Below, piece by piece: positions 7,588 to 47,835 of a stretch of 64,000 bases of DNA. Under the pieces are notes generated by a model. That model saw nothing but the letters and a program-made list of their open reading frames with translations. It searched no databases and had not been told where the DNA came from. A program made the position numbers and the translations under genes. The stretch spans positions 496,001-560,000 of the forward strand of contig NZ_JASJOU010000001.1 of NCBI RefSeq assembly GCF_030068605.1. Direction: 5' to 3'. Source of the stretch: Xanthocytophaga agilis. GTDB lineage: Bacteria; Bacteroidota; Bacteroidia; Cytophagales; 172606-1. The first letter of the stretch is position 1. Every line of letters begins with the position of its first letter.

Positions 7588-7902
7588 ATGGACGCATTGC
7601 GCCTATCCCAGCAACTAGAACAGCTACAAACCGAACTAGCCTGTTTGCAGGCAGAGGTCAAACGATTGGAAGCCCTATACATCCATCAGGCTACAGGTCA
7701 GACTACACGCATCACCATGGCCGAGGCCGAAAATCAACTGGGCGTTTCGCGCTTTCATATTCGCAGACTGATCGGAGCTGGTATCATTCAGAGTGGTCAA
7801 CGCATTGGTGCTGGCAAAAACGCCAAGTGGACGTTTGACTACCAGGAGATTTTGCATCTGGTTAAAAACCCGTCGTTCCTCAACATCGAATCCGTTTCCT
7901 AA
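7588..7902 (+). CDS. helix-turn-helix protein with N-terminal coiled coil
   Basis: A 104-residue protein. Residues 1-32 form a leucine-heptad coiled coil (LRLSQQLEQLQTELACLQAE), probably a dimerisation helix. Residues about 44-95 resemble an excisionase/MerR-type winged helix: ITMAEAENQLGVSRFHIRRL, then GIIQSGQRIG and a final WTFDYQEILHLV strand-helix. It is the first gene of the putative replication block. It may act as excisionase-like or plasmid/phage-type regulator; no integrase is nearby, so an architectural or regulatory job is as likely. Confidence 0.65.
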   Translation: MDALRLSQQLEQLQTELACLQAEVKRLEALYIHQATGQTTRITMAEAENQLGVSRFHIRRLIGAGIIQSGQRIGAGKNAKWTFDYQEILHLVKNPSFLNIESVS

Positions 7903-8049: not shown

Positions 8050-9423
8050 ATGAAGTACACACTCATTTATCATGACCTGCTTGGACATTTTGACATCAGC
8101 ATGAACGAACATGCACTGATGAGTCTGATCGATAATTTTTCTGCTCAAACGGGTTGGTGTTACGCCTCCAAAGTAGAACTGGGTAAAGCGCTTCGTCTAA
8201 CCTCGCGCTGGGTGTTTGATGCCATTACCCGGCTAGAGGGCAAAGGATTGGTAGAAATAAATGCAGAATCCCGTTTTTTGCGTGCCTGTCCGGTTTGGAA
8301 AAAAGCAATACATCAGTGTCAGAATCAACTTCCTTTGTCTGAAACTGTACAGGGGTCAGAGGAATGGATACAGGCCATTCAGCAAAAAAAGCGCAGAGCT
8401 GTGCAATACAAACATCGGCAGGCTATGCAGGATGCACACAACCATGATGCAAACCAGGAAGACTCAGAAGGGTATGCAGAAAATGCGCAGCAGCCTATAA
8501 ATACTTTTCCGTCTACAGCTGAAAAAACTTCAACGGTTGTGAATAGTTTTCCTATGCAGCAGGAAGAAAATTCCGTATCTGGTATGGACTATTCAATGAA
8601 CGAATTTCATAACCTATATGAAGAGACTTCACCATTGCCTGTGAATAATTTTCGATCAGGGTATGAAGAGAATTCGCATCAGGATATGAAAACTATTCCA
8701 TTTGCCTATGAACAGAATGCACACTATAATAACATATATAGTAACAGAAATAATAACAAGTATAAAAACAAAAATAATAACAATACAATAACAGAAAAAA
8801 GCGCATGCGCGCAAAGTTTTCAATTTTCAAATGAGCAGGAGATTTTTAAAAATGAACAAGCAGGGGAGAAGCTAGAAAATTTTTTGAAGAGCGAAGAACA
8901 GAACCAACCTGTTGTAGAAGCCGCTATAGTAACCCCTCCCCAGGTTGCGCCGGCCCCCTCCCCTAAGAAGGCTGCACAGATAGAAAATGCTATGCAAAAC
9001 GTGCATAGCCTTAAAACCGATTCTAAGGCCACTCCAGTCGATCCGTGTCTTGTGCCTTGTCGAGAGGTCTATCTGCTATATTTTGGGGCTTACAAGTGGG
9101 TCTATGGGCGTGACGACAAGTTTCTTAAACAGGTCTTGGAACAGATCCGCTACAAGATTGCTGTACAGTGGCAGCAACCCACTATGAATCTGGCAGAGAT
9201 TCCTGATGAGTCAGTGATCCATTCCTTCCAGAGCTTGCTGGAAATGATTCCTACCTGGTATCGCGACAATGGCTACACAGCACCCAACGATCTGAATCGT
9301 TTTTTTGAGAAGTACTATGCGGCTATTAAGTCAGGCAATGGAGGAGGAGCCCGTTCATCATTTGCTCCACCCAGAGATCAGGATGAGGAATATCTCCGTC
9401 TGATGCGTTTGTGTCGCGATTAA
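8050..9423 (+). CDS. putative phage/plasmid-type replication initiator (DnaD/lambda O-like layout)
   Basis: The ATG at 8050 (MKYTLIYHDLL) is preferred over an in-frame start 39 bp earlier because homologous-looking sequence begins there; the product is about 457 residues. The N-terminus is a winged helix (YASKVELGKALRLTSRWVFD, then AITRLEGKGLVEI) as in phage replication proteins. A low-complexity middle holds six degenerate repeats of about 15 residues with the pattern N.F....EE.S, then an Asn/Lys-rich tract. The C-terminal third (about 350-457) has a DnaD/helicase-loader-like helical look (YLLYFGAYKWVYGRDDKFLK). Function as initiator is inferred from architecture and context, not from a catalytic motif. 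Confidence 0.6.
   Translation: MKYTLIYHDLLGHFDISMNEHALMSLIDNFSAQTGWCYASKVELGKALRLTSRWVFDAITRLEGKGLVEINAESRFLRACPVWKKAIHQCQNQLPLSETVQGSEEWIQAIQQKKRRAVQYKHRQAMQDAHNHDANQEDSEGYAENAQQPINTFPSTAEKTSTVVNSFPMQQEENSVSGMDYSMNEFHNLYEETSPLPVNNFRSGYEENSHQDMKTIPFAYEQNAHYNNIYSNRNNNKYKNKNNNNTITEKSACAQSFQFSNEQEIFKNEQAGEKLENFLKSEEQNQPVVEAAIVTPPQVAPAPSPKKAAQIENAMQNVHSLKTDSKATPVDPCLVPCREVYLLYFGAYKWVYGRDDKFLKQVLEQIRYKIAVQWQQPTMNLAEIPDESVIHSFQSLLEMIPTWYRDNGYTAPNDLNRFFEKYYAAIKSGNGGGARSSFAPPRDQDEEYLRLMRLCRD
8500..8800 (+). other. in-gene iteron-like repeats plus A/T-rich tract, candidate origin
   Basis: Inside the putative initiator, repeat units start at 8500, 8542, 8599, 8644 and 8689. The last three are spaced exactly 45 bp. 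They share a core like AATAATTTTC followed by TATGAAGAGAATTC. A strongly A/T-rich, purine-skewed stretch follows at about 8725-8795. This matches the order iterons then unwinding element inside the initiator gene seen in lambdoid phage O genes. The amino-acid repeats could instead be the selected feature. Confidence 0.45.
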
Positions 9424-9487: not shown

Positions 9488-10531
9488 ATGTCCCTGATTC
9501 AACATCCGTCATCATCTGCCCTGCTGGGCAAGCAGTTCCAGTCTGTGAATCTGATTCAACAAGCTCAATCGCGTATTACAAACCTGCTCGAATGGCTGCA
9601 GCAAAACAACCTTCCGGCTCAACTGACCGTAGCCAAAAAATACCAGATCTATGCCCAAACGCTGATGGAAGGGCTGCAAGCTATTCCGCAACAAAGTGAA
9701 AGTTTGATTTACAATATGCAATCTCTGCAAGCGGACTACGGTGTACTCATTACCCAGATGTACAAGCATGCCAATGAGGAGATTGCCTCTCGTGCTCCGG
9801 CTCTGGAGGTGTTTGCCCGTACGCAAGGCGATGAAATCACCAATCGGCTTTTGTTTGTGCTCATCAAGTATTTTACCGAATCGATTACTGTCAAACAGTC
9901 GCTAACTGTGAAACAAACCACTGCCATGGCAAGTATGGTACAGGTAGACTTTCGGGATCTGTCACTGACCGATGTGCTGCTATGTCTTCGCAATACCCAG
10001 AGTGGCAAGTATGGGCAGCTCTATGAGTCGTTTGATTTTATCAAGCTGGGTGAATTTCTGCGAAAATACCGAAAAGAGAAGGAAGAGGTGAAAGCCCAGA
10101 AACACAAAGATCTGAAGTATTCACAGAGTTCAATCCTGTATGACATTGTAAGCAATCTGGACAAAGCCCCTGAACAGTTCAGAGAGCCTTTCCAAAGCCT
10201 GTCGGCTCAAAAGATTGCCCAAAAGTTGTCAACAGAACAGGATACCCACTCAGCCACACCCGACAGACCCGAGATAGGGGTAGACCTGGACGCAGTATTT
10301 GCAGAGGCAAACAAACCTACTTCCAAACTACCTCGACCCAAGCCATTGACAGAGAGCGAAAACCGCCAGCGAATTATGTCTGAGTTGACGCTGTATATGG
10401 ACCATATGACCGAAGCGGAATACCTCTATTATGTGGATTACTATGAAACGTATCGACAACCCGAACTGGTCGAATGGCTCAAGGTAGAGTGGAAGAAGGT
10501 GCAGGAGAAACAGAAAACCAAAGCATCGTAA
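9488..10531 (+). CDS. uncharacterised protein, putative replication partner
   Basis: A 347-residue soluble protein. It is mostly helical up to about residue 225 (LLEWLQQNNLPAQLTVAKKY), with a central block ITVKQSLTVKQTTAMASMVQ, then LSLTDVLLCLRNTQSGKYGQ, that resembles Bacteroidota phage/mobile-element proteins encoded next to initiator-like genes. An acidic, charged linker (240-300) leads to a C-terminal helix region ending in Lys-rich residues. It starts 64 bp after the putative initiator. By position it could correspond to a helicase loader, as lambda P follows O. No Walker motif is visible, so this is inference. Confidence 0.45.
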   Translation: MSLIQHPSSSALLGKQFQSVNLIQQAQSRITNLLEWLQQNNLPAQLTVAKKYQIYAQTLMEGLQAIPQQSESLIYNMQSLQADYGVLITQMYKHANEEIASRAPALEVFARTQGDEITNRLLFVLIKYFTESITVKQSLTVKQTTAMASMVQVDFRDLSLTDVLLCLRNTQSGKYGQLYESFDFIKLGEFLRKYRKEKEEVKAQKHKDLKYSQSSILYDIVSNLDKAPEQFREPFQSLSAQKIAQKLSTEQDTHSATPDRPEIGVDLDAVFAEANKPTSKLPRPKPLTESENRQRIMSELTLYMDHMTEAEYLYYVDYYETYRQPELVEWLKVEWKKVQEKQKTKAS

Positions 10532-10578
10532 ACAGGCTGGCAAAATGTCAATTCTAGCAACAATTATTCCGATACCCT

Positions 10579-11127
10579 GTAGGGGCAATCACGCCCAAAC
10601 ATTTCCCCTCCGAACGATTGGGAATATGCCAAACCAATGTAGGGGCGCACCTGCGTGTGCGCCCATGTTTCGTGCAGACCGTGTTTAGGTTTATAAACCA
10701 ACATCGGGAAATGTAGGGGTGCCCCTTGCGGGTACCCGTGTTTCCGACAACGAATGTCTGGGATTAATCCGAAAGGTTTGTCTAATAAACCCAATCATTC
10801 GCGAATGGAAACCGGGCAGGGGCAAGCCCAGCCCCTACAGGATCGGAAATACACAAACGCGGTCTGTGGGAATCAGGGCGCACCTGTGTGTGCCATGTTT
10901 CGTGCAGACAATGATTGGATTGGCGAATTACCATTGTGAAATGTAGGGGCGATTGGCAGATCGCCCTGGTTCGTGCAGACACGGCATGGGATACATCCGA
11001 AATGATGGTCGGAATATCATAATCATTCGGCGGGGAATCAGGGCGATCTGCCAATCGCCCCTACGATATCGGATTGTCACAAACAGGGTTTGCCGGAAAC
11101 CGGGCGCACACATGGGTGCGCCCCTAC
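10579..11127. repeat. eight GTAGGGGCG hairpin repeats in both orientations
   Basis: Copies lie at 10579-10596, 10639-10664, 10713-10738, 10812-10838 (reverse), 10875-10893 (partial), 10943-10967, 11039-11064 (reverse) and 11101-11127 (reverse). A unit is GTAGGGGCG, a variable stem-loop, CGCCC, then often ATGTTTCGTGCAGAC. Stems differ between copies (CGCAC/GTGCG, CGAT/ATCG, GGGTGCCC/GGGTACCC) yet largely keep pairing. Copies at 10943 and 11039 are exact 26-bp inverted repeats of each other. The 10532-11561 interval has no credible gene. Open frames through it are by-products of the repeats. Confidence 0.8.
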
Positions 11128-11185
11128 ATCGGTTCGGAAAAATACCTATGTGTTGGATGGTAACAATCAGGTGATTTGCCATATG

Positions 11186-11523
11186 TGACCGGAGTTCCGG
11201 TCACACAGAAGAAATATCCGAAGTATGGTCAACACCCGTGATTGATCGGAACTATGGTCAAAATGGTAATCGCTGACTGAGTGAACAGAAAAATGTTCAG
11301 CAAACGAAGTGAACAGAAATCGAATCACTTTGTAAAATGACTGGAACTCTGTTCACTTTTGCGTTTGACCATACTTCCGGTCGCTTTTTGGTTTGACTGG
11401 AATACCAGTCGCTTTCCAGAAATATTCGAACTCTGGTCACTTTACAGAATGACCATACTTCCAGTCAAACTCTTGGCTGACCATAGTTCCAGTCACCAAC
11501 CTGTTTGATCGTACTTCCGGTCA
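11186..11523. repeat. 12-unit, 28-bp-period quasi-palindromic array (TGACCGGA type)
   Basis: 18-bp units start at 11186, 11214, 11243, 11282, 11310, 11338, 11366, 11394, 11422, 11450, 11478 and 11506. The first, TGACCGGAGTTCCGGTCA, is a perfect palindrome. Others vary, for example TGACCATACTTCCAGTCA, TGAACAGAAAAATGTTCA and TGACTGGAATACCAGTCG. Spacers are 10 bp and often start CTTT (ctttccagaa, ctttacagaa). One 11-bp extra insert breaks the phase after the third unit. The array ends 38 bp before the XRE start codon, so it may be its operator array, an iteron set or a centromere-like site. Not CRISPR: the spacers are too short and alike. Confidence 0.8.
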
Positions 11524-11561: not shown

Positions 11562-11798
11562 ATGAATCTAAAAGACATCGGCGAACGCATCCGCCTCTTT
11601 CGAATGGAAGTACTCAACCTCTCTCAACGCGAATTTGCTCAGCGCATGGGAGTAGCCCAGGGCAACCTATCCTCTCTGGAAAAAGGCCACCAGCTACCAA
11701 GTTGCTTCTTCCTGTGGTGCCTACATGCGACCTATCAGGCCAATGTGCATTGGCTCTTTACAGGAGATGGTGAGCCGGTGGTGAAAGCAAATAAATAA
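11562..11798 (+). CDS. XRE-family transcriptional regulator
   Basis: A 78-residue single-domain HTH_3 protein. The ATG at 11562 (MNLKDIGERIRLFRMEVLNL) is chosen because an earlier in-frame start at 11505 lies within the repeat array. The HTH spans about residues 5-60: REFAQRMGVAQGNLSSLEKG carries the two recognition helices. The end VHWLFTGDGEP is typical of phage-type Cro/C1-like proteins. It follows a 12-unit palindrome array directly, which suggests autoregulation through it. A decayed copy of its 3' end lies at 12471-12562. Confidence 0.85.
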   Translation: MNLKDIGERIRLFRMEVLNLSQREFAQRMGVAQGNLSSLEKGHQLPSCFFLWCLHATYQANVHWLFTGDGEPVVKANK

Positions 11799-12470: not shown

Positions 12471-12562
12471 TGTTTTTTGTCCTCTAGCGCCTACATGTGA
12501 ACTTTCACATAAACCTGTATTGGTTAATAGCGGGTGAAGAAGGGAGCAAAGAACATTCTTGA
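12471..12562 (+). pseudogene. relict of XRE regulator 3' end
   Basis: In the frame of CTA at 12491 this reads LHVNFHINLYWLIAGEEG, then SKEHS and a stop. It aligns with the XRE C-terminus LHATYQANVHWLFTGDGEP. Upstream the alignment continues, with TGG changed to the stop TAG (tcctctagcgcctacatg against tcctgtggtgcctacatg). The 5' part, including the HTH, is gone. The relict marks an old duplication around the cargo gene at 11864-12424. Confidence 0.7.
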
Positions 12563-16527: not shown

Positions 16528-16947
16528 ATGGCACTAAGTGTAGCCCTATTAACCTCACGAGCCGATTGTGACAAAGTCCTTAACGAGCTGTCAGACATCA
16601 AAGGCAATCTGGAATTCCGTCAGATCTCACTGACACGTAGTAAAGATAATGCAGCCGACAGAGCCTCTACCATCGACGCAGATCTGGCTGCTGCTGAAGC
16701 AGAGGTAGAATCGTTGATTTCGATTATCGCAGCCCTTCCTGAAAGCGCCACCAAAACCGAGATGGAAAACCGTAAGGTACGTGCCGACTATCGGTTGTTC
16801 ACCTTACAGCAACGGAAGGCACAGTTTGGTACTACGGCTGTGATTTTGTATGAATCCGAGTTAGGAGAGATCGAACAGCGTTTGTCTGTGATTGATGGTT
16901 CCATGAACGACGTTACCGTTCGTAAAGCAGCTTTGCCAGCAGGCTAA
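16528..16947 (+). CDS. small coiled-coil protein, phage-like context
   Basis: A 139-residue protein, almost entirely helical (AADRASTIDADLAAAEAEVE, LISIIAALPESATKTEMENR). The heptad pattern indicates a coiled coil or helical bundle. There is no signal peptide. It is the first of five small genes that end with the amidase. The G+C-richer, alanine-rich composition differs from the cargo genes upstream and resembles the amidase block. Function unknown; a structural or assembly role is possible. Confidence 0.5.
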   Translation: MALSVALLTSRADCDKVLNELSDIKGNLEFRQISLTRSKDNAADRASTIDADLAAAEAEVESLISIIAALPESATKTEMENRKVRADYRLFTLQQRKAQFGTTAVILYESELGEIEQRLSVIDGSMNDVTVRKAALPAG

Positions 16948-17106: not shown

Positions 17107-17361
17107 ATGAAAGTACTGATTTTGATTTCGGCTTTATGTTTTGTGGTGGGTTTGGCTGGTGGCTTGTTGGTAGAGCATCATTTCAATCCACCGGAAGTAT
17201 ACGAGTGTGAAGTGATTGACTACAGCCAGATTGAGCAGATTGTAGCTAAACAGGTTGCCAGTCATCCGGTACAGATGCTGGATGTGGAGAAGATCAAACA
17301 TGTACGTCAGTTTACGTATGCGCCTGTATTTTGTGTGAGAGATACCTGTAAAGGGCCGTGA
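17107..17361 (+). CDS. small membrane-anchored protein
   Basis: An 84-residue protein with one N-terminal hydrophobic segment (MKVLILISALCFVVGLAGGL) and an exported acidic tail containing two late cysteines (FCVRDTC). It could be an inner-membrane component such as a spanin-like subunit, given the holin-like and amidase genes just downstream. That role is inferred from context only. Confidence 0.5.
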   Translation: MKVLILISALCFVVGLAGGLLVEHHFNPPEVYECEVIDYSQIEQIVAKQVASHPVQMLDVEKIKHVRQFTYAPVFCVRDTCKGP

Positions 17362-17894: not shown

Positions 17895-18185
17895 ATGACT
17901 ATTGCAACTACTGCCGTTCAACCAATTTGTGAATCAAATCTAGCTGTTGACAACATCTGTTTGACCCTTGCCAACGAACAGTTAGCCTTTGAGAAAAAGC
18001 TGCTTGAAAACGAAATCCAGCGCCTGCAATTATTGCTTGAAGATACCCAGCTACAGCTGGAAATGCTCAAAGAACAAAACGAGGAGCTGGAAGGTGAAAA
18101 CCAGGATTTACATATGGAAGTATCTGAACTACAGGACGAAATCATTGACCTGATGGAAACAGTGGAAGATCTGATGGACGTGTAA
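17895..18185 (+). CDS. coiled-coil protein next to lysis amidase
   Basis: A 96-residue, strongly acidic protein. Residues 25-95 form a long continuous heptad coiled coil (LLENEIQRLQLLLEDTQLQL, LEGENQDLHMEVSELQDEII). No signal peptide. It lies between the holin-like gene and the amidase. Possible roles are structural or regulatory; no family recognised. Confidence 0.5.
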   Translation: MTIATTAVQPICESNLAVDNICLTLANEQLAFEKKLLENEIQRLQLLLEDTQLQLEMLKEQNEELEGENQDLHMEVSELQDEIIDLMETVEDLMDV

Positions 18186-18285
18186 TCACTCAAATGATGA
18201 ATCACTCAAACGATCATTCTGGTTGCTCAACGATCAGAATGATCCTTTTCCTCCAACATTCCTTCACCAGCTAAATCACCCAACC

Positions 18286-18807
18286 ATGAAATTTCAATAC
18301 TTAATCATTCACTGCACCGCTACACTCGCCGGACGCTGGGTATCTGCCGAAGACGTCAAAAAATGGCACACCAAACCCAAACCCTACGGCAACGGCTGGA
18401 AGCAAGTAGGCTACTCCGATCTGATCCTGTTAGATGGCTCCCGTCACCAGTTCGTCAAACACAACAACGACCAGATCATTGACTCCTTCGAGATTACCAA
18501 TGGGGTAGCAGGTATCAACTCCATTTCCAGACATTTGTGCTATGTAGGTGGCCTGGACTCTTCCCATAAAGCACCATTGGATAGTCGGACGCCTCAACAG
18601 ATCTCGACCATGCTCGATATAATAGGGGAGGTGTTAGGTTATGCACCCAATATCAAGATTGCCGGACATAACCAGTTTGATAACAAAGGCTGTCCGTCTT
18701 TCTTCGCCCCAACATGGCTTAAGCAGCTAGGTATTCCCGAACACAACATCGAGTGGCGCGATCCGTTTGGCTATGAACGGTATTTTAAGCAGGCCTGGAA
18801 GCGATAA
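18286..18807 (+). CDS. N-acetylmuramoyl-L-alanine amidase (phage-type endolysin)
   Basis: The ATG at 18286 is chosen, where the catalytic domain begins (MKFQYLIIHCTATLAGRWVS); the product is 173 residues. It belongs to the Amidase_2/T7-lysozyme fold, which cleaves the bond between muramic acid and the stem peptide. Visible zinc ligands are the early H in IIHCTA, the H in IAGHNQFD and the C in NKGCPSFF. It lacks a signal peptide and a cell-wall-binding domain, as expected for a holin-dependent endolysin. It ends the lysis-like block. A decayed 3' copy lies at about 22025-22229. Confidence 0.9.
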   Translation: MKFQYLIIHCTATLAGRWVSAEDVKKWHTKPKPYGNGWKQVGYSDLILLDGSRHQFVKHNNDQIIDSFEITNGVAGINSISRHLCYVGGLDSSHKAPLDSRTPQQISTMLDIIGEVLGYAPNIKIAGHNQFDNKGCPSFFAPTWLKQLGIPEHNIEWRDPFGYERYFKQAWKR

Positions 18808-36921: not shown

Positions 36922-36927
36922 CACTAT

Positions 36928-37318
36928 GCAAGCCGTCCTATCGCTATTCTGTTTTGGCAGAGTGGAGGAAAGTCCGGGCAGCACAGAGCAGCGTACTTCC
37001 TAACGGGAAGGCTATGAACGGGCAACTGTTTATAGACAGATAGTGCCACAGAAAATATACCGCCAGATTCTGGTAAGGGTGAAATGGTGGAGTAAGAGCC
37101 CACCGCATGGATGGTGACATCAATGGCAGGGTAAACCTTACGCGCTGAAAGACCAAATAAGCTGGCGATGTAGGTAGTGCATACCCTGTACTACGTATGA
37201 AAGGGCTGCTCGCCCGAGTCAGTGGGTAGGTCGTTAAAGGCCAATGGTGACGTTGGTTCAAGATAAATGATAGGAGTCTGAATCTATTCAGAACACAGAA
37301 CCCGGCTTACAGGCTTGC
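36928..37318 (+). ncRNA. rnpB: RNase P RNA (class A)
   Basis: Catalytic RNA of ribonuclease P, which matures tRNA 5' ends. The diagnostic P4/CR-I sequence GAGGAAAGTCCGGGC lies at about 36962-36976. CR-V lies near the 3' end as ACAGAACCCGGCTTACAGGC. The first helix pairs GCAAGCC at 36928 with GGCTTGC ending at 37318. The length of about 391 nt fits. The last 12 nt overlap the 3' end of the convergent HAMP-GAF gene. Confidence 0.95.
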
Positions 37319-39025
37319 ATAATTTTTACGTTGGTGTAGCGCTTCCACCATTTTCAGGTGAGCAAACGTAGCTGCAATACTTTGTCCTACCTTTTCCAGA
37401 AATTGAATCTCATGAGGCTCAAAGTAATGAAAAGAGGCTAGTTCCAATACACCTTCTTTGGTATGATTGGCAATCAAAGGCACCAGTAAGATAGAACGCG
37501 GTGTAGCATCTCCCAATCCGGAGGTGATGGCAGGGTAATCCTGAGGGACTTCCTTCATATAGATATATTCCCCTTCCTTCCAGCATTGACCTACTAGGCC
37601 AAAGGACTTATCAATCTGTTTCTGAATATACTTTTTCTTGTCAAAAGCAATACAGGCTTTCATTTCCAGTATATCTGTATCAGGCAGTTCTACAAAAATA
37701 GCTCCCTGGCATGCCCTGACGTACTGAATCAGTTCACGAAGTACTTCATGGCTTATTACAGTAATTTCTGCATTGCGTTGAAGAATCTCGGCAATTCGGG
37801 CATAACCTACATTTATCCAGTTTTGACGTGTTTCTTCTTCCTTAAGCAAACGTAATTGCCGGGTCAGATGCAACAGAGAATTATTCAGCTTATCTTTTGA
37901 AGATGCAACCACAATATCTGTTTCCAATTTTCCTTCTGAAATCTCTGTCAGATGCTGAGATGTTTGTTGCAGTCGGTCTACTACTTTGCTAAAACCCGCT
38001 AATAGTTTATTAAGAGAGTTATGATGCAAGGATATGGCTAATGAGGTATCAATGTTTCCCTCTGCTATATGTTGTGTAATAGTGGTAAGTTCCTGAATTG
38101 GTGTAACAACCAGTCGCTTGAATAGATAACTGCTTACTGCCAGCCCAATGATAGATAATGCAATCAATAGTATAAGAATACCTACTATCCAACGTATGGC
38201 CGTATGTGCATACTGATTCAGATCAGAGTTTATTGTAGCTATATCAGTTTGGATTTTCTGATATGTGAGGTTCATTTCCTTACGCAAGCCTTCATTTTCA
38301 TCCAATCCTACTCTTTTTTCTATTTCTACAATTTTGAAGAACACAACTCCATAGGTTTCCAGAGCTGCTTTCACATGGTCGCCTATTTCTGGACTTTTAC
38401 CGCCTGCAATGATACTATCTATTTTATTCTGAAATTTATTGAGCTGATACGCAAACGTTTTTACATAATGTTTGTCTTTACGTAAAAAGAAATCTTTCTC
38501 TTCCCTACGAAGCAGAAGCAAATCTGTTTTATCTGTTGGGAAATTTGCTTCTTCCACAAAATACACTGCAACACGCATTTGTCCTTCCAGTCCCATATCA
38601 TTGAAACCTCTTTCCCGGTATAATTTTCCAACGGTTTCAAATGCAGTATTATAGCGGGCAAGATCCTGTTGAAGGGCAACCAGGGCAAGTTCATTCTTTT
38701 CAGACTGGCAAACACTAATTTTCTGAAGAATTTTGATAAGGCTATCCGACTCCTGTAAAATCTGTTGATTTTTATCGAAAAAAGTACTCTTGCCAGTTCT
38801 GATAAAAACTTCACTGTTAAAATCTTTGAGCAGAAAGTCTTTTTCTGCGCGTCTGGCTTCTCCTATCTTAGTAAGCACCTCCTCAATAGTAGTGCTGGCC
38901 TGATAACTTTGTTTCAGCTGATTAATTAAAAAGAACAGGGCGACAACAATACCTCCTATACTAATGCAGAGTATGGCTGCAATATAAACTTTAGAGCGAG
39001 CAATCCGGTTGAAACCGTGAAACAT
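37307..39025 (-). CDS. HAMP-GAF membrane sensor protein
   Basis: A 572-residue signalling protein. An N-terminal membrane helix (VYIAAILCISIGGIVVALFF) and a second one (AIRWIVGILILLIALSIIGL at about 280-305) enclose a helical periplasmic sensor of about 240 residues. HAMP follows (RLVVTPIQELTTITQHIAEG), then a coiled coil (about 365-395) and a C-terminal GAF domain (about 410-560). No kinase, cyclase or methyl-accepting core is visible, so it may signal through a partner, perhaps the regulator divergently encoded at 39363. Its stop codon lies inside the 3' end of rnpB. Confidence 0.85.
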   Translation of the reverse strand: MFHGFNRIARSKVYIAAILCISIGGIVVALFFLINQLKQSYQASTTIEEVLTKIGEARRAEKDFLLKDFNSEVFIRTGKSTFFDKNQQILQESDSLIKILQKISVCQSEKNELALVALQQDLARYNTAFETVGKLYRERGFNDMGLEGQMRVAVYFVEEANFPTDKTDLLLLRREEKDFFLRKDKHYVKTFAYQLNKFQNKIDSIIAGGKSPEIGDHVKAALETYGVVFFKIVEIEKRVGLDENEGLRKEMNLTYQKIQTDIATINSDLNQYAHTAIRWIVGILILLIALSIIGLAVSSYLFKRLVVTPIQELTTITQHIAEGNIDTSLAISLHHNSLNKLLAGFSKVVDRLQQTSQHLTEISEGKLETDIVVASSKDKLNNSLLHLTRQLRLLKEEETRQNWINVGYARIAEILQRNAEITVISHEVLRELIQYVRACQGAIFVELPDTDILEMKACIAFDKKKYIQKQIDKSFGLVGQCWKEGEYIYMKEVPQDYPAITSGLGDATPRSILLVPLIANHTKEGVLELASFHYFEPHEIQFLEKVGQSIAATFAHLKMVEALHQRKNYASL

Positions 39026-47538: not shown

Positions 47539-47613
47539 ATATTCGAACTCTGTTCATGTTGAAGTTTGACTGGAGTTACGGTTGATTTTTCAGATCAACC
47601 GTAACTCCAGTCA
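47539..47613 (+). repeat. two-unit relative of the 28-bp array, second unit forms a terminator
   Basis: Unit 1 (47539-47556, ATATTCGAACTCTGTTCA) differs at one base from the unit at 11422-11439. Unit 2 starts exactly 28 bp later at 47567 as TGACTGGAGTTACGGTTGA and pairs perfectly, 19 bp, with TCAACCGTAACTCCAGTCA at 47595-47613, loop 9 nt, then TTTTTTA. It lies 67 nt after the lipoprotein stop, so it looks like a terminator built from the repeat. I see nothing else in 47500-47835. Confidence 0.75.
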
Positions 47614-47835
47614 TTTTTTATTTTAACTGCACCTCCAGGTAGTAGAAATAAACTATTGGAATTAGTTCTTGAGTTTTTCCCGCTTATAGACAGAGTTTGA
47701 ATAGGGTTGAACAAGCTTTTAAAATCACAAAGACACAAGAGTATTTTTTAGTTTTGTAAAAAGTAGAAATAATCTGTCACGTTTTTTCTTGCATACTGGT
47801 CATAAGTACAGATTTCATTTAAAACAAAAATACTT

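Follow-up and report, generated by a model that had tools for sequence, protein, structure and literature searches.

What does a row of evenly spaced quasi-palindromes do directly in front of a small XRE gene, and which protein, if any, would occupy it? The question is raised by a locus in the window, i.e., the whole stretch of 64,000 nucleotides of Xanthocytophaga agilis DNA analyzed here. Evidence was drawn from the array itself, from the window's own genome (G000; 9.77 Mb, 66 contigs), from a genome taken to be that of X. flavus YF14B1 (G001), and from more distant relatives.

The array and the gene that follows it

The first-pass annotation had described a 12-unit array with a 28-bp period, and this description was borne out. 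The array (positions 11186 to 11523, + strand) is a predicted A-type operator lattice of 12 sites of 18 bp with the half-site consensus TGAcCnGAa. Its sites, all on the + strand, are located at 11186 to 11203 (site 1, TGACCGGAGTTCCGGTCA), 11214 to 11231 (site 2, with a divergent left half, ATATCCGAA), 11243 to 11260 (site 3, followed by a 39-bp step), 11282 to 11299 (site 4), 11310 to 11327 (site 5), 11338 to 11355 (site 6), 11366 to 11383 (site 7), 11394 to 11411 (site 8), 11422 to 11439 (site 9, with a divergent left half, ATATTCGAA), 11450 to 11467 (site 10), 11478 to 11495 (site 11), and 11506 to 11523 (site 12). The steps between unit starts are, in order, 28, 29, and 39 bp and then eight of 28 bp; 9 of the 11 are exactly 28 bp. 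At lag 28 the identity of the interval is 0.516, whereas 500 dinucleotide shuffles averaged 0.252 and did not exceed 0.336; no other lag between 5 and 60 is as strong. Between the end of the last unit (11523) and the ATG of the XRE gene (11562) lie the 38 bp reported earlier. The claim that the units are 18-bp quasi-palindromes depends on scale: palindromy is unexceptional within this single array (7 windows with at least 6 of 9 pairs; shuffle mean, 3.2; maximum, 9), whereas it is clear over the 57 A arrays called in the two genomes, with 4.99 of 9 pairs in register versus 1.37 to 3.65 at other offsets. The array is not a slice of a longer unrelated repeat, given that the similarity among copies consists of the lattice and extends little past it. 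A CRISPR array was rejected as a candidate, since the 12 units differ among themselves and are not near-identical repeats.

The XRE gene (11562 to 11798, + strand) encodes a 78-aa protein with a phage-repressor-like HTH and the recognition helix VAQGNLSS, as judged from Pfam, the PHROG repressor families, and a family profile. The protein scores 22.6 bits against Phage_CI_repr (cutoff, 22) and 27.4 bits against HTH_3 (cutoff, 23), and the Pfam and 434 repressor profile matches place it among the HTH repressors of the CI class. The profile of the XRE family has 16 matches, the best of which is named DBP48, followed by dh434; they include P22 c2 and the 434 repressor, the latter with an E value of 4.6e-6. 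We take the residues that define groups within the family to lie in the recognition helix, based on the alignment with the 434 repressor and the presumed place of the helix in that protein.

Further genes of this A-type element, all on the + strand, lie on both sides. Upstream are a small HTH-like gene (7588 to 7902) labeled xis_A, a function that we assume from the look of the protein, a gene for a 457-aa protein that by eye resembles a winged-HTH replication protein (8050 to 9423), and a gene for a 347-aa protein (9488 to 10531); all three are without a Pfam match. Downstream are genes for a 139-aa protein also encoded downstream of XRE in other elements (16528 to 16947), an 84-aa membrane-like protein (17107 to 17361), a coiled-coil-like protein (17895 to 18185), and an Amidase_2-like protein (18223 to 18807; 24.6 bits, under the cutoff of 26), the homologue of which at locus L013 is above the Amidase_2 cutoff and matches a PHROG lysis family. 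Across elements, the neighbors of XRE include an HTH_17 protein (AlpA under the cutoff), a helicase or VapE-like primase, an AAA ATPase that also has a weak terminase match (E value, 0.0015), a nuclease that matches PHROG endonuclease and Holliday-junction-resolvase entries and is presumably of the VRR type, and an amidase related to phage lysis proteins. Neither a capsid gene nor an integrase was recognized near XRE by eye or among the proteins scanned; replication and lysis-like genes are present. The elements in which XRE sits are phage-like and are predicted to be integrated. Between the gene at 9488 to 10531 and the array, positions 10570 to 11130 contain many repeats of the type TAGGGGC...GCGCCC, which also occur upstream of other XRE loci. 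A fragment at 12488 to 12547 (RLHVNFHINLYWLIAGEEGS in a by-eye translation) looks like the C-terminal portion of XRE family proteins, and a partial XRE match is also found near the C20 element.

Lattices and recognition helices across the XRE family

Protein matches to XRE at an E value of ≤1e-8 numbered 15 in G000 and 13 in G001, and the other 37 relatives contained one weak match (G030). A scan of GTDB genomes, which may omit the window's own genome, returned 12 loci, 10 of them in X. flavus and two of them weak deltaproteobacterial matches. We examined 27 loci, namely, 15 of G000 and 12 of G001, the G001 match C11 being left out. Plain identity at lag 28 was above all of 200 shuffles in 20 of the 27 upstream regions, the exceptions being C10, C2, and C13 of G000 and C2, C5b, C33, and C22 of G001. 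Lattices were then fitted with a half-site learnt for each locus from its 360-bp upstream region, preset allowed steps, and one shuffle each. The fit scored 94 to 202 at 22 loci, compared to 44 to 61 for their shuffles, and 48 to 80 (shuffles, 47 to 63) at five loci without a clear lattice, of which C2, C13, and G001 C5b are near the shuffle level and C10 and G001 C33 are slightly higher. The tie between a phased array and an XRE gene, proposed initially from the window, therefore extends to 22 of the 27 loci examined, where dyad sites, which are predicted operators, stand beside the repressor gene. The 360-bp stretches contain 6 to 11 sites with a main step of 28 bp. A single gap interrupts 18 of the 22 lattices, measuring 39 bp in six and 41 bp in twelve; the gap is 67 bp in two others, and C20 and G001 C26 have none within the stretch.

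Each recognition helix comes with a half-site of its own. VAQGNLSS (five loci, subtype A) is accompanied by TGAcCnGAa; TAQGNLSS (four loci and the pseudogene C8d, assigned to this group by its remnant helix) by tAACCgGaA; INQSNIS (four loci) by TGCGgTnAA; LGQSNISA (two loci) by TGCnnnGAA; LGQSNISQ (two loci) by TGCgcatAg; MGQGNISK (two loci) by TGAaCngtA; and IAQSHISK (one locus) by TGATCanTA. G001 C26, which has the helix LGQSNISQ, carries TGCngtGAa and reads closer to the remaining B subtypes than to the group that shares its helix. For the 22 lattice-bearing loci in seven helix groups, the five lattice-less loci being left out, the distance between half-site matrices is 0.063 within groups and 0.360 between them, a difference reached by 0 of 5,000 label permutations; many of these loci are orthologues or duplicates, so that the permutation overstates their independence. 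The three B helix groups are mutually closest (matrix distance, 0.16 to 0.26). The sequence of the half-site tracks the recognition helix of XRE, and G001 C26 fits its group poorly. Among distant XRE relatives, L124 and L125 have no period above the null, L194 is slightly above the null at lag 36 although repeats are absent, and the palindromic repeats of L064, three in number and at 37 and 52 bp, amount to an ordinary small operator set. At L161, G001 C22, a subtype E lattice (TGATAGGTATAGTGATCA) and its XRE are found downstream of subtype C-like replication genes.

Iteron origins of replication are also phased arrays, and in the elements the array lies between the replication genes and XRE; it might hence serve the element as an iteron-type origin, with a replication initiator rather than XRE as the protein that binds it. 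Sixteen element proteins were compared with 25 XRE regions. XRE itself was found in every region, which carries no weight as evidence since the regions were chosen for XRE. The replication modules differ by group: (i) A elements have one replication set of their own; (ii) C and E elements carry a helicase, an ATPase, and a nuclease, individual parts of which are missing at some loci; (iii) VapE is found in most B elements and in D; and (iv) the nuclease is present in B, C, and E elements and the helicase in C, D, and E elements. The same kind of lattice nevertheless occurs in A elements and in those of types B and C, the replication genes of which do not match the A set, and the sequence of the sites follows the helix of XRE. 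The loci L013 (subtype C) and L161 (subtype E) share upstream blocks of 3,035 and 331 bp that are 88 to 89% identical; the alignment ends just ahead of the lattice, and the lattice, XRE, and all fetched downstream DNA are unaligned (E value, 1e-3). In this one clear case, lattice and XRE differ together despite common replication genes. As nothing downstream of XRE aligns, the exchanged piece may far exceed the lattice and XRE. The arrays do not track the replication genes, and we consider an iteron origin quite unlikely.

Dispersed arrays between host genes

Sites of the A type are not confined to XRE loci. Among the matches listed, a degenerate A-site pattern with one mismatch matched 146 + 161 times in G000, compared to 48 + 41 for the reversed control. 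An array search, in which 40 of 92 candidates were scored in G000 and 40 of 86 in G001, gave at least 41 and at least 31 matches, respectively, which are pieces and sometimes several per array; the search of six other relatives turned up no A array. When sites were called in 58 loci (31 of G000 and 27 of G001), 57 arrays with 541 units were obtained, with steps of exactly 28 bp in 410 of 484 cases, 39 bp in 22, and 29 bp in 20. Only 5 of the 57 arrays adjoin an XRE (three in G000 and two in G001). An array of at least four sites was present in 26 of the 28 dispersed A loci of G000, L034 and L049 being without one. At 47539 to 47641 (+ strand), the window has a further A-type lattice, short and degenerate, in which about four units can be read by eye.

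A second site type, B (halves TGCGGTGAA, TGCGCATAG, and alike), is also dispersed, among the matches listed. B arrays were found in 25 of the 26 G000 loci given, five at XRE loci and 20 dispersed, and L166 had none. Steps of 28 bp account for 97 of 151, a count that includes the steps of the A array in the window, since this array is detected by the B model as well. B arrays have single gaps of 39 to 41 bp, or of 66 to 70 bp where a site is missing, and some B sites have one A-like half. One of the dispersed B-type lattices lies in the window at 75 to 356, where 7 or 9 sites were called. It has no XRE match near it, and some of its sites are hybrids that combine a B half with an A half, as in TGCGCATAGTTCTGGTCA; in comparison with X. 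flavus, its sites differ at 15 of 162 positions and its flanks at 10 of 474, i.e., the sites differ more. Exact matches to the C type were confined to the three C XRE loci or to places of A arrays, and D-type matches beyond their own element were scattered two-mismatch matches near the control level (4 of 15 forward matches in the element; control, 6). A tblastn search for element remnants beside dispersed arrays, with 18 element proteins including XRE against 48 loci, gave one 27-residue match (L166).

The 45 dispersed arrays (26 A and 19 B) that are flanked by ORFs on either side lie between convergent genes in 16 cases, tandem genes in 26, and divergent genes in 3, compared to 13, 85, and 27, respectively, of the 125 other junctions in the array loci; on these counts, which rest on ORFs called by length only, convergent junctions are enriched (P = 3e-4) and divergent ones depleted (P = 0.024). 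REP/BIME elements likewise exist as many noncoding intergenic copies and favor 3' ends. The arrays may accordingly be viewed as REP-like dispersed repeats, mobile or passively multiplied noncoding sequences of which the XRE-adjacent copy is one landing of many; this would fit the gene orientations as well as the 26 A and 20 B arrays of G000 that lie away from XRE and between genes. Such an origin is unlikely in view of the C sites, found only at XRE loci or places of A arrays, the D extras near the control level, the separate lattice of each XRE subtype, and the apparent constraint on key half-site positions described below. Moreover, in contrast to REP/BIME elements, which are hairpin palindromes with covarying stems, the arrays lack hairpin covariation, form a 28-bp lattice, and have a matched DNA-binding gene.

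The absence of covariation runs counter to the earlier proposals that the two halves of a unit vary together and that symmetry rather than sequence is kept. The halves of 370 distinct A units match slightly less than re-dealt halves (z = -3.5, mostly due to position 9), and those of 155 distinct B units also fall slightly below (z = -1.9), position 3 being homotypic (z = +4.8); there is thus no net covariation in either type. Because the halves vary independently, two protein half-sites are favored over hairpins. Transcribed hairpins, i.e., RNA or single-stranded DNA structures such as a row of terminators or 3'-end stabilizers, would account for the quasi-palindromic sites, the often T-rich one-strand spacers of A arrays (by eye), and the preference for gene 3' ends. 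They are hardly credible, however, given that there is no net covariation (B position 3 being the one exception), that units 2 and 9 of the window array form 3 of 9 pairs each, and that Rfam at gathering scores matched nothing in the arrays from seven sources. The covariation and Rfam results led us to reject the RNA hairpin. The Rfam matches obtained were a tRNA in L042 and the bacterial RNase P class A RNA (RF00010) at 36925 to 37325 of the window.

Many dispersed arrays are shared with X. flavus. Counterparts of 17 of the 28 dispersed A loci were present among 36 fetched G001 loci, with L039 and L046 matching on one flank only, and of the 21 B loci, 13 had a match, strong in 9 cases, among 40 fetched G001 loci. 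At L052, the two flanks match different X. flavus array loci (L130 and L135), with the break near the array. Arrays may be recombination points. Two of the 11 A loci without a counterpart were flank-searched in G001, and neither gave a clean empty site. The G001 counterpart of L032 is without an array and measures about 180 bp, compared to about 1,410 bp in G000, so that no insertion point or target duplication is readable; L043 has no continuous counterpart in the flank search. Indels within arrays include ones of 28 and 56 bp, and small ones also occur. Over all 17 A pairs, including XRE-adjacent ones, divergence is 8.5% in sites, 11.2% in spacers, and 9.9% in flanks.

Constraint was assessed in 12 A pairs (two XRE-adjacent pairs, L039, L046, and L054 being dropped) and the 9 strong B pairs, using sites called in either species. 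Half-site positions 1, 2, 3, and 8, picked after seeing the A data, differ at 68 of 1,447 (4.7%), compared to 175 of 1,807 (9.7%) for other site positions (P = 6e-8) and 7.9% for spacers (P = 9e-5); the B pairs alone give P values of 1.3e-4 and 0.03, respectively. Whole sites evolve no slower than flanks, which include coding DNA (A, 7.1% versus 6.5%; B, 8.1% versus 6.4%). The key half-site positions of dispersed arrays look constrained, and gene conversion between copies could be an alternative keeper of these four positions. Lattices that are dispersed, intergenic, strictly phased, and in many cases at the same places in two species might also be chromosome-organizing sites, to which a host nucleoid or segregation protein binds and which the XREs of the elements borrowed. 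A single host protein would not explain why every one of the seven XRE helix groups comes with a lattice of its own, and the lack of A arrays in the six other relatives also argues against such sites, which we regard as very improbable.

A probable operator lattice and its possible wider role

The reading that we prefer, with a probability of about 65%, is that the array is the operator lattice of XRE, which sequence comparison predicts to be a short repressor of the 434/P22 type encoded by a phage-like integrated element, with a putative role in immunity and autoregulation. XRE dimers would bind the 18-bp sites, each consisting of two independently recognized 9-bp half-sites. The sites would probably fill cooperatively, and the filled lattice would repress the XRE promoter region and set the immunity specificity of the element. 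At 10.5 bp per turn, a 28-bp step amounts to 2.67 turns and would place neighboring dimers about 240 degrees apart around the helix; since the gap is 41 bp (326 degrees) and not 39 bp (257 degrees) in 12 of the 18 gapped lattices, it is doubtful that helical register is kept. The operator lattice alone leaves the XRE-free majority of A and B arrays unexplained. The dispersed copies may also be bound, in which case they could act as a reservoir that titrates the repressor and/or as road-blocks to transcription where genes end.

Parts of this arrangement have precedents. (i) The datA locus and iteron clusters bind replication initiators and could titrate a DNA-binding protein. The arrays resemble them as site clusters with such a capacity, but they are numerous and have a repressor-like partner. 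(ii) The 434 and P22 c2 repressors have in common with XRE that a short HTH repressor is accompanied by dyad sites beside its gene. The lambdoid phages 434 and P22 have about three operators per side, whereas 6 to 13 sites form a 28-bp lattice here, and XRE, with only 78 aa, is about the size of a DNA-binding domain. (iii) Stoperators of L5-type mycobacteriophages are described as many intergenic repressor sites proposed to halt elongation, with >20 asymmetric 13-mers in the phage genome predicted to be bound by monomers (PMC9283540). The likeness lies in the many predicted repressor sites in intergenic spaces, and the difference in the two-half sites, their arrangement in arrays, and their presence in the host chromosome too. 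Asymmetric single sites oriented with transcription are not what we found, as the sites have two halves and 16 of 45 arrays lie between convergent genes. The arrangement is new although its parts are known: strictly spaced predicted sites precede a phage-type repressor gene, and two kinds of them are dispersed. No described element of such a shape was found in the PMC literature, among the matches listed, in agreement with the first-pass annotation.

A more far-reaching and tentative possibility is that the operator lattice of an element has turned into a genome-wide binding system, in which two repressor specificities would each own dozens of phased lattices between host genes, kept over speciation. 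Bound repressor might then form helical filaments that insulate gene ends and/or buffer the repressor level, and the host chromosome would be part of the immunity circuit. If repressor does occupy the dispersed lattices, host DNA would become a determinant of superinfection immunity, repressor titration, or transcription insulation. The closely related HTH proteins, each with its own array of sites, offer a direct system in which to study how a repressor and some ten sites jointly acquire a new specificity.
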